Positions 9,970 to 37,519 of a stretch of DNA of 44,409 nucleotides are shown piece after piece; positions within the stretch are counted from its first letter, which is position 1, and each line of letters opens with the position of its first letter. Made by a program: the position numbers and the translations under genes. Source of the DNA: Flavobacteria bacterium RIFCSPLOWO2_12_FULL_35_11 (GTDB lineage: Bacteria > Bacteroidota > Bacteroidia > Flavobacteriales > Flavobacteriaceae); the NCBI GenBank assembly GCA_001800975.1, contig MGWK01000073.1, forward strand, positions 1-44,409, in the 5' to 3' direction. The notes under the pieces were generated by a model. It saw only the letters and a program-made list of their open reading frames with translations, had not been told where the DNA came from and made no database searches.

Positions 9970-10070
9970 TTCAACCTGCGTTAAGGATAGAGCGGTTTGT
10001 TTGAGCTATTTTTTTGTTTTTCACAAAAAAAGCGAGTAGCGATAGCCTGACCTGCAAGGGAACGCCCAAA
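9970..10070 (+). repeat. Interspersed hairpin element, copy 1
   Basis: The 5' module is GCGTTAAGGATAGAGCGG and the 3' module CTGCAAGGGAACGCCCAAA. Between them a hairpin pairs TTTTTTTGT (10009-10017) with ACAAAAAAA (10023-10031), flanked by GTTTGAGCT and GCGAGTAG. Both end modules and the arm sequences recur in copies 2 and/or 3. It may be a non-coding RNA or a small non-autonomous repeat; I know of no name for it. Confidence 0.75.
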
Positions 10071-10297
10071 TTATGCTGAAGCATTAAATTGGATTTATTT
10101 ATTGAAAAAGCAAAAAAAATAAGCATTAAAAAATTTGATCTTAAAAAGGTAAATTAATACCAATACAATTCTTGAATAATTCGTATTTTAGCATCACAAA
10201 ATAATTTTAGATGAAACGAGCCTCACAAATTTTGATACACAAAAGAATGTTTAATGGCGAACTGCATCTGTACCAATAAAAAATAAAATTTAAACAG

Positions 10298-11380
10298 ATG
10301 AAAAATACTGCTTTAACTCATATTCACGAGTCATTAGGTGCTAAAATGGTACCGTTTGCAGGCTATATGATGCCTGTACAATATGAAGGAATTAATATTG
10401 AACACGAAACCGTTAGAAATGGCGTTGGTGTTTTTGATGTTTCACACATGGGAGAATTTCACTTAAAAGGGAAAAATGCCTTGGCATTGATTCAAAAAGT
10501 GACCTCAAACGATGCTTCTGTTTTGGTTGACGGAAAAATTCAATACAGTTGTTTGCCAAATAATGACGGCGGTATTGTGGATGATTTATTGGTTTACAGA
10601 ATCACGGAAGATCATTATTTTTTAGTGGTGAATGCTTCAAATATTGAAAAAGACTGGAATTGGATTTCTTCACATAACGATTTGGGTGTTGAAATGACCA
10701 ATGTTTCAGATGATTTGTCTTTACTGGCCGTTCAAGGACCTAAAGCTGCGCAAGCGCTACAATCTTTGACTGATATTGATTTATCCGCTATGGAATATTA
10801 CACGCTTAAAATTGGCACTTTTGCGGGAATTGACAATGTAATTGTATCTGCTACAGGTTATACAGGTTCTGGCGGATTTGAAATTTACTTTAAAAATAAA
10901 GATGCCGAACATATTTGGAATGCAATTTTTAAAGCGGGAGAAAAATTCGGAATTAAACCTATTGGTTTGGCCGCACGCGATACCTTGCGTTTAGAAATGG
11001 GTTTCTGTTTGTACGGAAACGACATTAATGACACTACTTCCCCTATTGAAGCTGGTTTGGGATGGATTACAAAATTCACAAAAGACTTCACCAATTCTGA
11101 AGCGTTAAAAAAACAAAAAGAAGAAGGCGTTTCAAAAAAATTGGTTGCTTTTGAAGTTGTAGAAAAAGCAGTTCCGCGTCACGATTACGAAATAGTGAAT
11201 GAAGAAGGCGAAAATATTGGTGTTGTAACATCGGGAACTATGAGTCCGTCATTAAAAAAAGGAATTGGAATGGGTTATGTGAAAACGGCTTATGCCAAGC
11301 TTGGTTCAAAAATTTTCATTCAAATCAGAAATAAAGCAATTCCTGCCGTAGTGGTTAAATTGCCTTTTTATAAAGGTTAA
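10298..11380 (+). CDS. gcvT: Glycine cleavage system T protein (aminomethyltransferase)
   Basis: This encodes 360 residues, the standard length. It is the T component of the glycine cleavage complex: it releases ammonia from the aminomethyl group on lipoyl-H protein and transfers the one-carbon unit to tetrahydrofolate, giving 5,10-methylene-THF. Family landmarks are [57 protein letters not shown], the PIEAGLGW stretch and the C-terminal [16 protein letters not shown]. gcvH and gcvP are not in the window. GlyA at 14344 uses the same folate pool. The end overlaps the convergent acyltransferase gene by 4 bases with no terminator between them. Confidence 0.97.
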
Positions 11381-25762: not shown

Positions 25763-26716
25763 ATGAAAAAATACACGTTTACAGAAAAAAAGGACACGAG
25801 ATCGGGATTTGGTGCAGGATTGGCTGAATTGGGCGACACAAATGAAAATGTAGTGGCGCTTTGTGCCGACTTGGTGGGCTCGTTAAAAATGGAAAAATTT
25901 ATTGAAAATCATCCTGAACGATTTTTTCAAATTGGCATTGCAGAAGCAAATATGATGGGAATCGCAGCTGGTTTAACTATTGGAGGCAAAATTCCGTTTA
26001 CAGGCACTTTCGCCAACTTTTCTACTGGAAGGGTTTACGATCAAATTAGACAATCTATTGCCTATTCTGAAAAAAATGTAAAAATATGTGCTTCACACGC
26101 CGGTCTGACTTTGGGAGAAGACGGCGCGACACATCAAATTTTGGAAGATATTGGTCTCATGAAAATGTTGCCTAATATGACGGTGATCAACACCTGCGAT
26201 TACAACCAAACAAAAGCGGCGACTATTGCCATTGCGGAACATGTTGGTCCGGTTTACTTGCGTTTTGGGCGTCCGGTTGTACCGGTATTTATGCCGGCAA
26301 ATGAAAAATTCATCATCGGAAAAGCCATTATGTTAACTGAAGGTACAGATGTTACCATTGTTGCTACCGGACATTTGGTTTGGGAAGCATTGCAAGCTTC
26401 AGAAAAACTGGAAACGATGGGAATTAGCGCCGAAGTTATTAACATTCATACCATAAAACCTTTAGATAACGAAGCCATTTTAAAATCTGTTGCAAAAACA
26501 GGTTGTATCGTAACTGCTGAAGAACACAATATTTTAGGCGGTTTGGGTGAAAGCGTTGCGCGTATTTTAGTTCAAAACAATCCGGCACCACAAGAATTTG
26601 TTGCGGTTAATGACAGTTTTGGAGAATCTGGAACTCCAGAACAATTGATGGAGAAATATGGGTTAACAGATAAAGACATTGTTTCAGCAGTTAAAAAAGT
26701 CATCGCCAGAAAATAA
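25763..26716 (+). CDS. Transketolase, C-terminal subunit
   Basis: This encodes 317 residues and corresponds to the pyrimidine-binding and C-terminal domains of transketolase. FQIGIAEANMMGIAAGL carries the conserved glutamate that activates thiamine diphosphate. SHAGLTLGEDGATHQILEDIGLM, VYLRFGRP and the C-terminal VTAEEHNILGGLGE region are also present. In split transketolases it pairs with an N-terminal subunit of about 280 residues for the non-oxidative pentose phosphate pathway. That partner gene, usually next door in this family, is not in the window. An alternative assignment as part of a DXS-like enzyme is less likely. Confidence 0.93.
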   Translation: MKKYTFTEKKDTRSGFGAGLAELGDTNENVVALCADLVGSLKMEKFIENHPERFFQIGIAEANMMGIAAGLTIGGKIPFTGTFANFSTGRVYDQIRQSIAYSEKNVKICASHAGLTLGEDGATHQILEDIGLMKMLPNMTVINTCDYNQTKAATIAIAEHVGPVYLRFGRPVVPVFMPANEKFIIGKAIMLTEGTDVTIVATGHLVWEALQASEKLETMGISAEVINIHTIKPLDNEAILKSVAKTGCIVTAEEHNILGGLGESVARILVQNNPAPQEFVAVNDSFGESGTPEQLMEKYGLTDKDIVSAVKKVIARK

Positions 26717-32618: not shown

Positions 32619-32757
32619 ATTCAAGCTGCGTTAGGGATTGAACGGTCTGTTTGAGCTCTTTTTTAGTTGCCTTTCGCAACTAAAAAAAGCGAGTAGTGAA
32701 AAACCGCCCGCCTTTTCGGCGGGAACGCCTACCGAAAAGGCGGGCAGGCAGGCCCAA
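32619..32757 (+). repeat. Interspersed hairpin element, copy 2, with extra GC-rich hairpin
   Basis: The 5' module is GCGTTAGGGATTGAACGG. The central hairpin pairs 32659-32670 with 32676-32687 (12 bp, perfect). The 3' part contains GGGAACGCC and ends GGCCCAAATAATTA. GTTTGAGCT before and AAAAAAAGCGAGTAG after the hairpin are shared with copy 1, but the loop-proximal part of the stem differs and still pairs. A second stem pairs GCCCGCCTTTTCGG (32706-32719) with CCGAAAAGGCGGGC (32732-32745) and carries GGGAACGCC in its loop. Confidence 0.8.
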
Positions 32758-32771
32758 ATAATTAACTATTA

Positions 32772-34675: not shown

Positions 34676-36739
34676 TTAAACTAATTTATTTTGTTGCTCA
34701 AAATTAATGACAGGACTTCTAAAATGTTTTTTCATCAATCCTTCAAATGAACGATATACAAATGGTTTTGAAATGTAATCATTACAACCAGCTTCTAGAG
34801 CCTTTTCTCTGTCTCCAGTAAGCGCATAAGCCGTTTGTGCGCAAATAATGACATCTTTATTAAACTGTCGTATTTGCTTTGTAGCTTCATAGCCATTCAA
34901 TTCGGGCATTTTAATATCCATTAAAATCAAATCAATGTCAGGATTATTGCGGCAAATTTGAACAGCCTCCACTCCGTTTCTGGCAATTAAAACTTCTCTG
35001 GAATACTTTTGAATTTTTATAACAATTAACTTTTCAGTAATTTCATCATCTTCAGCAATTAATATTTTTCGTTGATTGCTTTGGTTCTTATCTTCAAATT
35101 CAGAAATAACAGTATTAATATCTATTTTTACTTTTTTTATTGATTTGTATGGTATGGTAAAATAAAAGGCAGAGCTTCCGATTTTGCCTTCAGATAAGTT
35201 TTCTGCTTCACTTTCTACCCAAATTTTTCCACCCAATAATTCAACATAAGCTTTGGAAATTGACAAACCCAATCCAGCACCTTCATAATTTCGGCTAAGA
35301 GATTCACTTCCTTGCCTAAACCTTTCAAAAATGAGGCCTATTTGTTCTTTGCGAATGCCCACGCCTGTATCTTTTACAAAAAATTCAAGGAATTTGCCTT
35401 TTTTCTCGCAGCCAAATTCAATAGAACCAAAATTAGTAAATTTAATGGCATTTTTAACAAGATTTGTCAGAATTGCATAGAGCTTTTCCCTGTCTGTTTT
35501 TATAATTACATCCTTTGTAGGCAACAAATTTTTAAAAGATATATGAATCGCTTTTTTATCTGCCTCCGACTTAAAAAAGGAATGAATGTATTCCAATTGA
35601 TCATTTATATTGGATTCAGTGATATGAACTTCTATTATTCCTGATTCTATTTTTGAAATATTTACAATATCTGTTATGATATTGAGCATGCGTTTGCCGC
35701 TATTCTCAATGATTCGTATGTACTCTTGCTGTTTTTCACCAGTAAGATTTGGTATCTTCAGCAAACTCGCAAATCCCAAAATACCATTCATAGGCGTGCG
35801 AATTTCATGTGACATATTGGCTAAGAAAGCAGATTTTAAACGATCACTTTCTTCGGCATGTTCTTTGGCAATTATCAACTCTTCAGCCCGTTTTTCCTTC
35901 TCCTCATTTTGAAAAGCCAATTCTTCATTGGCAATCACCAATTCAGCAGCCCGTTTTTCTTTCTCTTTATTCTGAAAAGCCAATTCTTTGTTTGCGATAG
36001 CCAACTCAGCAGCCCGTTTTTCTTTCACGCTGTTTTGAAAGGCAAGTTCTCTATTGGCAATTACTAACTCTGCTGCCCGTTTTTCCTTCTCCTCATTTTG
36101 AAAAGCCAATTCTTCATTGGCAATCACCAATTCAGCAGCCCGTTTTTCTTTCTCTTTATTTTGAAATGCCAATTCTTCATTGGCAATGACCAATTCGGCA
36201 GCCCGTTTTTCTTTCTCTCTATTTTGAAAAAGCAATTCTTTATTGGCAATGGCCAATTCGGCCGCCCGGTACTCTTTCTCTCTATTTTGAAAGGCAAGTT
36301 CTTTGTTGGCAATTACCAACTCAGCTGCCCGTTTTTCCTTCACTTTGTTTTGATAAGCCAATTCTTCATTGGCAATGACCAATTCAGCAGCCCGTTTTTC
36401 TTTCTCTTCATTTTGAAAAGCAAGCTCTTCGTTAGCAATAATCAATTCGGCAGCCCTCTTTTCTTTTACTTTATTTTGATAAGCAAGTTCCTCGTTGGCA
36501 ATGCTTAATTCTGATGCTCTTTTCTCTTTCTCACTATTTTGAAAGGCAAGTTCCTTGTTGGCAATAATTAACTCTGCCGCTCTTTTTTCTTTAACTTTAT
36601 TTTGATAAGCTAATTCTTCATTGGCAAGAACAAGCTCAGCAGCCCGTTTTTCTTTCTCTTCATTTTGAAAAGCAAGTTTTTTATTGGCGATAATCAATTC
36701 TGTTGCGCTTCTTAACGCAATTTTATCCTTGTCAGGCAT
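34676..36739 (-). CDS. Hybrid histidine kinase with thirteen 21-residue coiled-coil repeats
   Basis: This encodes 687 residues. Residues 12-284 are thirteen copies of a 21-residue unit (AAELVIANEELAFQNEEKEK type), exactly three heptads each, then a decayed copy (285-303). HisKA follows with H311 in FLANMSHEIRTPMNGILGF, then an HATPase domain (N box, DTGVGI, GAGLGLSISKAYVELLGG). A C-terminal receiver domain has D608 in LILMDIKMPEL. There is no PAS, GAF, CBS or membrane segment, so it is a soluble kinase whose only input region is the predicted long coiled coil. No HPt or second regulator is nearby. Such repeats occur in other Bacteroidota kinases, often beside PAS domains; here they stand alone. 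It is co-oriented with ytxH and the holin-X gene. Confidence 0.93.
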   Translation of the reverse strand: MPDKDKIALRSATELIIANKKLAFQNEEKEKRAAELVLANEELAYQNKVKEKRAAELIIANKELAFQNSEKEKRASELSIANEELAYQNKVKEKRAAELIIANEELAFQNEEKEKRAAELVIANEELAYQNKVKEKRAAELVIANKELAFQNREKEYRAAELAIANKELLFQNREKEKRAAELVIANEELAFQNKEKEKRAAELVIANEELAFQNEEKEKRAAELVIANRELAFQNSVKEKRAAELAIANKELAFQNKEKEKRAAELVIANEELAFQNEEKEKRAEELIIAKEHAEESDRLKSAFLANMSHEIRTPMNGILGFASLLKIPNLTGEKQQEYIRIIENSGKRMLNIITDIVNISKIESGIIEVHITESNINDQLEYIHSFFKSEADKKAIHISFKNLLPTKDVIIKTDREKLYAILTNLVKNAIKFTNFGSIEFGCEKKGKFLEFFVKDTGVGIRKEQIGLIFERFRQGSESLSRNYEGAGLGLSISKAYVELLGGKIWVESEAENLSEGKIGSSAFYFTIPYKSIKKVKIDINTVISEFEDKNQSNQRKILIAEDDEITEKLIVIKIQKYSREVLIARNGVEAVQICRNNPDIDLILMDIKMPELNGYEATKQIRQFNKDVIICAQTAYALTGDREKALEAGCNDYISKPFVYRSFEGLMKKHFRSPVINFEQQNKLV
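35888..36706 (-). repeat. Thirteen tandem 63-bp coding repeats in the hybrid kinase
   Basis: The period is exactly 63 bp (for example CCCG at 35950 and 36013), encoding 21 residues. Units alternate between types with ending EEKEKR, KVKEKR, SEKEKR and REKEKR; the order suggests duplication of one- and two-unit blocks. All indels are whole units, so the frame is kept. Confidence 0.95.
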
Positions 36740-36877
36740 AATTATGGATTAATTAAAAAAATGGGTTTATTGAATAGGTGTTTTTCTTATACGCATTGGT
36801 TTTAACATTAACTTTTGTTGCATTATTTTATTTTAGATTGTATCAACAATGGGATAATTTTAAAAAATAGTGCTTTT

Positions 36878-37287: not shown

Positions 37288-37415
37288 TTTTTGGGCGTTC
37301 CCTTTCAGGTCGTGCTTTACGTTCCAATCCGTCTTTGGAGCGGAGCGTGGCAATCTGTTGAAATTATTCCTTAACAAACTCGCAAAACCGGGATTTCCAC
37401 TTCAATCGCTTACGC
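37288..37415 (-). repeat. Interspersed hairpin element, copy 3 (diverged)
   Basis: Read on the minus strand, it starts GCGTAAGCGATTGAAGTGG and ends CTGAAAGGGAACGCCCAAA. That end differs from copy 1 by one base in 19. AATCC near the start can pair with GGATT near the end. The centre differs from the other copies and contains TGTTAAGG...TTCAACA and a GC-rich CCACGCTCCGCTCC stretch. Confidence 0.7.
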
Positions 37416-37519
37416 AAATCGATTTTCAATTTTTGAAATTTCACCAAACCTTAATCAATAAAATAAAGTTAAATTCTGCCAACGTTGCACAGACAGCAAC
37501 AAATCGAACAAGTTTTCGT

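Follow-up and report, generated by a model that had tools for sequence, protein, structure and literature searches.

Flavo-1 (RF01705) is the described family closest to the repeat analysed here, and its function is obscure. The table entry in Weinberg 2010 (PMC2864571) gives it as 'RNA? y, cis-reg? n', and Rfam types it as an sRNA, an orphan. A review (PMC9029176) places it, in the passage concerned, among abundant sRNA families without function. In those sections of a 2021 transcriptome study of F. psychrophilum that deal with it (PMC9723704), Flavo-1 matches are sense or antisense to transcripts alike, many lie outside transcripts, and no real clue to function emerges.

The window considered here, the whole stretch of 44,409 nt, is contig C73 of a 3.56-Mb genome assembled in 98 contigs (the own genome hereafter). 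A first-pass annotation had reported in it an undescribed interspersed hairpin element with conserved ends, in three copies near 9970, 32619 and 37288. All three were found there or a few bases off. The word 'undescribed' cannot be upheld: of 66 own copies put to the test, 32 reach the Flavo-1 gathering score of 42 bits (the test used 60 own sources, in which 66 of a total of 72 own copies lie). Broken down by tip class, A to E being our own pattern labels, the passes were 22/24 for B, 6/9 for C, 1/2 for B', 2/7 for D, 0/1 for E and 1/2 for unlabelled copies; sister copies scored up to 63.7 bits. None of 21 copies of class A (GTTTGAGC..GCGAGTAG), the class of window copies 1 and 2, passed the cut-off. 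Copy 1 scored 28.3 bits and copy 3 scored 33.1 bits, both under 42, copy 2 was absent from the Flavo-1 matches at E <= 5, and at Rfam cut-offs the window held no RNA family besides tRNA. Judged by our own covariance model R1, described below, the window copies would form a sister class of Flavo-1 within one family rather than an Rfam match.

Copy 1 (class A) has its core at 9977-10070 on the plus strand, from TGCGTT to GCCCAAA, and scored 97.1 bits with R1. Its outer stem P1 pairs GCGTT (9978-9982) with AACGC (10061-10065), the latter assigned by covariation; across copies, P1 pairs are either unchanged or altered on both sides. The lower part of the long arm P2 runs from AGGATAGAGC (9984-9993), which includes non-standard A-G and G-A pairs, to its covarying partner GCGATAGCCT (10039-10048). 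Between them lies a predicted class A tip hairpin (10005-10033, read from the sequence, the class being our pattern label). A small third hairpin P3 (CC..GG, 10051-10060) follows; P3 pairs in 97.9% of own-copy cells. All these parts are on the plus strand. Copy 2 (32627-32758, plus strand) is also of class A, with a P3 of type CCGCCTTTTCGGCGG and an additional GC-rich unit ahead of the final CCCAAA; R1 gave 83.9 bits for 32626-32733. Copy 3 (37290-37416, minus strand, 55.9 bits) combines the core scaffold with a REP-like centre of class D, a class whose tips we take to resemble CGTC-type REPs. As the annotation had proposed, GTTTGAGCT and GCGAGTAG are common to copies 1 and 2 and flank unlike stems, and copies 1 and 3 have similar 3' modules (27 nt in common, 89% identity). 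Two details refine its description: the centre of copy 3 is a longer REP-like module rather than another version of the hairpin in copies 1 and 2, and copy 2 has the additional GC-rich unit.

Other repeats were seen in the window. A second family of about 95 nt lies at 10211-10305 (plus strand), contains a mini-ORF, MKRASQILIHKRMFNGELHLYQ, and stops where the ORF at 10298-11380 has its start codon. Searching the own genome with the version from the related genome G010 gave 29 rows of matches, some tandem-overlapping; most of seven copies start with ATGAAACGAGC and finish with ACAGATGAAA, which makes them look as though start codons had been the place of insertion. A tandem repeat of 63 nt, or 21 residues, per unit was picked up in 12 registers at 35802-36794, within an ORF at 34676-36739 on the minus strand, and has relatives in related genomes. 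At 1-2362 the window starts with long tandem repeats (342 and 240 nt), which may belong to a large surface protein of repetitive make-up, to judge from the sequence.

Within the window, the end modules gave mixed signals. The 5' module had 2 matches, compared with 0.02 expected. The 3' module had 3 matches with up to three mismatches, a count reached by 16 of 100 shuffles and thus weak; these were copies 1 and 3 and a stray match at 26264, the scan overlooking copy 2, in which the 3' module is altered. Genome-wide, both modules stood far above control, confirming that an interspersed element with fixed ends is real. The 5' module (up to three mismatches) had 36 matches versus 0 for the backwards control, and the 3' module (up to two mismatches) had 46 versus 4, a few of the 46 lying within unrelated sequence. 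By script, we extracted from 60 module-match loci 41 distinct elements with both modules, and aligned 32 of them (alignment A1); the other nine, which had nested inserts, unusual centres or uncertain ends, were set aside. Model R1 (101 positions, 21 pairs) was built on these 32 copies. It found 75 places in the own genome at E <= 0.05, the three window copies among them, own copies matching by construction because R1 was made from own copies. The search for further copies that the annotation had suggested thus brought their number to about 75.

Comparison of the copies supports a predicted three-way junction, with P1 (GCGTT:AACGC), the long arm P2 with kept G-A pairs, and the small P3. RNAalifold on A1 returned 21 pairs, 14 of them with two-sided changes. 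In a second alignment (A3) of 73 own matches (72 distinct rows), 95.5% of 1500 cells paired, compared with 79.7% in shuffles, and 18 of 21 pairs showed two-sided changes, although A3 is biased toward the structure of R1 by construction, its rows having been fitted to that model. Each of these two counts was reached in 0 of 500 shuffles, and slid versions of A3 paired in only 35 to 55% of cells. Compensatory changes in the stems, which the annotation had set as a test, are therefore present across the aligned copies, and A1 and A3 unite classes A, B and C in a P2 arm with a covarying stem. The structural case rests on this comparison of copies and not on folding energy: single-sequence RNA folding was unremarkable for copies 1 (z -0.75) and 3 (z -0.33); copy 2 gave a moderate value (z -2.83), and its reverse strand folded better (z -4.04).

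Paired changes could also arise without selection or exchange, if quasi-palindrome correction at replication templated one side of a hairpin on the other. The abundance of two-sided changes and the scarcity of half-way states agree with such a process. Correction should, however, remove mismatches, yet two non-standard positions were kept among 185 copies from the own genome, G010 and part of G006: the first is A-G in 160 and G-A in 17 (177/185), the second G-A in 166. Neither could correction bring in unrelated tips such as the REP-like and CAGCTGG ones, and we regard this explanation as highly improbable.

Strong covariation is what would be expected if Flavo-1 were a transcribed non-coding or cis-acting RNA, with a scaffold to which a protein or some ribosome-associated factor binds and with tips drifting freely as spacer. 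Such an RNA would explain the kept G-A pairs and agrees with the Rfam classification. However, G-U barely exceeded A-C in P1-P3 (35 versus 21 of 2603 cells, counted over 187 rows, a few from overlapping loci), which gives little sign of an RNA-strand preference. Gene context tells against it as well. Among 154 elements, 79 lay between tandem genes, 47 running the same way as the genes and 32 the opposite way, a preference that was not significant (p 0.11); 30 were convergent, 31 divergent, 9 at edges and 5 inside ORFs of at least 100 codons called mechanically. A terminator or UTR role was rejected on the same ground. The F. psychrophilum matches described in the relevant sections of PMC9723704, in both senses and often outside transcripts, point the same way. 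As a separate observation on context, SAM or SAM-II riboswitches are found no more than about 130 nt away from three Flavo-1 copies (L012 1355-1459, L042 1715-1815 and L059 1608-1667).

The distribution of the element cuts both ways for an RNA. With R1 at E <= 0.001, matches were found in 28 of 40 genomes: 24 of 25 of the same genus (own included) and 4 of 15 from other families of the order. Where present in the genus, the element had 2 to 99 matches, high counts being perhaps lower bounds with about 100 candidates scored per genome. A range of 0 to 99 copies among congeners would be odd for a single sRNA gene. In the best match from each low-copy congener and from four other-family genomes, the core ends were alike and the flanks unlike. 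Class A letters recurred in two of the other-family genomes, G028 and G030, between unrelated flanks, in favour of an RNA. An exact 16-letter scan of named genomes gave, among the matches listed, mostly Bacteroidota, a few Spirochaetes and scattered other phyla; it lends weak support because about 120 chance matches are expected, by our estimate, in 257 billion bases. On this evidence we consider a functional RNA rather unlikely, if by no means fanciful.

The history of individual copies was followed at orthologous sites. We compared a 6.9-kb stretch carrying copies 2 and 3 across 38 genomes of the genus and took intergenic alignments from twelve of the best loci (L127-L138); with the own genome counted, these covered nine genomes for site 2 and eight for site 3. 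The element was present at both sites in all genomes aligned, G001 retaining only its 3' part and G016 a degenerate form at site 2; G010 had no element at site 3. At site 2, another centre was carried by most of the eight relatives in the alignment. All seven aligned at site 3 had the element, most again with other centres, so that the class of centre at these sites varies between species.

A wider comparison was made with G010, in which R1 identified 80 copies at E <= 0.01 (82 were used with flanks); 72 of the 75 own copies entered it, three weak ones being left out. The element was present in G010 at 37 of 40 own copies with both flanks syntenic, in a sample picked around G010 copies and therefore favouring presence. 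Orientation was identical at 37/37 shared sites, and one of the three sites without the element kept a 3' remnant. On five almost whole G010 contigs (0.98 Mb), which were not chosen by element, it was present at 10 of 13 sites, the three absences lying within longer replaced or rearranged stretches. Sharing was thus demonstrated for part of the copies. G010 orthologs were established for only 37 of 72 own copies, and since only 10 of the 23 elements on the five contigs match own copies, about half of the copies are without demonstrated sharing. When four unmatched G010 copies were traced, two own sites held the element (one with a single flank kept) and two did not.

At orthologous sites the arms of the element were inherited. 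For 34 of the 37 ortholog pairs (three were dropped for poor arm match), identity was 0.869 in the left arm, compared with 0.809 +- 0.009 when pairs were shuffled, and 0.859 in the right arm, compared with 0.770 +- 0.014; neither value was reached in 5000 shuffles. Tip class, by contrast, did not agree beyond chance, being equal in 26% of pairs where 23% were expected (p 0.35). In the 25 pairs of unlike class, arms were closer to the ortholog than to non-orthologs of the same class (mean +0.079, Wilcoxon p 1.8e-4). The alignment score of the centres was nevertheless higher at orthologs than in shuffles (0.278 versus 0.193, p 0.003), so tips are not fully randomised. Taken in four-letter blocks, the ortholog excess in unlike-class pairs was 0.02 in the conserved left outer stem, close to 0.1 along the lower arm and between 0.01 and 0.13 above it; as it has no sharp end at the arm top, the edge of any exchange is blurred. 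We conclude that positions and lower stems are inherited at many sites and that tips turn over.

The tips themselves differ between genomes chiefly in P3. By our patterns, P3 tips of the CAGCTGG type occurred in 61 of 82 G010 copies versus 1 of 72 own copies, and single copies of G001, G005, G022 and G024 had related ones. The 13-letter form CGCCAGCTGGCGG had 61 matches in 1.03 Mb of G010, all within elements, in a count over both strands in which one palindrome may count twice; for the 10-letter palindrome GCCAGCTGGC, 37 of 40 G010 matches were within elements. Clustering by genome was not significant for the other tips (A, p 0.054; B, 0.77; C, 0.057; D, 0.90), which weakens simple genome-wide homogenisation. 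The copies compared yielded no known donor-recipient exchange of tips. In the open PMC literature, as distinct from subscription papers, we found no report of tip exchange or such behaviour. Beside these tips, a small CCCTTCGGCTNCGCTCAGGGTAAAC-like palindrome is nested within the arm of several Flavo-1 copies, both in the own genome (L023, L019, L032 on the minus strand, and L230) and in G010 (L235:3511, L237:10319, L242:16790, L248:11695, L250:5413, L290:9951 and L291:780); in two cases it is missing from the orthologous G006 copies.

The reading we favour, with a confidence slightly above even, is that of an old, DNA-level, REP-like structured repeat of the Flavo-1 kind, whose scaffold is mostly inherited in place and whose tips are swapped between copies, perhaps in a gene-conversion-like manner. 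The scaffold would be the three-way junction formed by the outer stem P1, the arm P2 and the small hairpin P3. Copies would have dispersed long ago, many now sitting at inherited sites. At each site P1 and lower P2 would be handed down, and the tips of P2 and P3 may give way to small palindromic repeats or to tips taken from other copies. Replacement could proceed by a gene-conversion-like template switch, in which shared arms anneal as single strands and non-homologous tips are carried over. Copy number, structure, the shared sites with their orientation, the inherited arms, the chance-level agreement in tip class and the prevalent P3 tip of G010 are observations; we infer how copying proceeds, that the element works as DNA rather than as RNA, and that it was mobile in the distant past. 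The kept G-A pairs, the conserved unpaired letters and the class A letters in two other-family genomes would fit a functional RNA too. One may go further and propose that Flavo-1 sites are docking scaffolds, at which a putative structure-recognising activity cuts or copies at the top of the P2 arm and at P3 and so swaps tips as cassettes among fixed places in the genome, a version that we think speculative and unlikely. Such in-place exchange of cassettes would, to our knowledge, have no counterpart among other intergenic repeats.

Mobility in the present would be a different matter, and the annotation had suggested a small non-autonomous element moved in trans. A still active transposon, of MITE or HUH type, would have as its mobile unit a longer form with the Flavo-1 core inside, and a subset of copies does have such a form, with outer inverted repeats of about GGYTTAATTCTAATA..ACAGCA. 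One long-form G010 copy, with outer ends resembling inverted repeats, is absent at its own-genome site; the own alignments overlap there by 5 nt and TATTT stands on both sides. This repeat is compatible with insertion, but equally with deletion between short repeats in the own genome. At a second own site without the G010 element, the missing stretch is 341 nt versus 11 nt and not element-precise. Many sites are moreover common to the own genome and G010. The outer repeat occurred only twice in the own genome, both times beside Flavo-1, and in 3 of 299 family genomes, own included, the other two having a match at 2 mismatches each. An autonomous partner sought through it was accordingly rejected, no bearer being seen at the own matches, to which this inspection was confined. 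There are two near-identical pairs of G010 copies; in the first, one member is next to the end of a contig, so that the pair may reflect the assembly.

The own genome gave six Y1-transposase matches, of which two are RAYT genes (NCBIfam NF047646). Another is a fragment truncated where its contig stops, at a distance of about 1.4 kb from a Flavo-1 copy, which speaks for a transposon. No Flavo-1 was met in the flanks examined of both RAYT genes, one of which ends 16 nt from a contig end, with its far side outside view. Mobilisation of Flavo-1 by RAYT was rejected, the modules occurring only near the contig-end Y1 fragment and as one stray match in an ORF. One RAYT gene (locus L066, 1240-2210) is flanked on either side by another palindrome, GCACGAGCGGGACGCTCGCGCCAGCGGGG, which is likely to be the REP that belongs to it. 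With many sites common to species, no element-precise empty site and RAYT flanks free of the element, movement in trans found no support, and we think an active transposon improbable.

These results extend the anatomy of Flavo-1 by P1 and P3, add a class of copies missed by the public model, and reveal inherited positions and lower stems with turnover of tips at many sites. This combination of inherited sites and arms with tip turnover makes RNA, selfish DNA and exchange scaffold directly testable against one another. It also cautions that the step from a covarying stem to an RNA gene may fail in dispersed repeats.

How, then, does the element compare with known systems? MITEs are small, non-coding and dispersed, and the element is alike in this; a subset of its copies carries outer inverted repeats. 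It differs in that no target duplication and no autonomous partner could be demonstrated for its core. Integron attC sites share a core, GTTRRRY; an attC likeness was dropped because the GTT and AAC ends of the element, as read from its sequence, are in the opposite order. Like REPs and BIMEs (PMC3733652, which in the part concerned treats GTAG- and CGTC-tagged REPs), the element is short, palindromic, intergenic and present in high copy number. It differs from them in forming a probable three-way junction of roughly 85-135 nt with no demonstrated tag end, and from REP/RAYT systems in that the two RAYT genes of its genome lack Flavo-1 in the flanks examined. With Flavo-1 it shares the P2 arm and its letters; the Rfam model covers 76 positions and a single hairpin, to which the element described here adds the outer stem P1 and the third hairpin P3.
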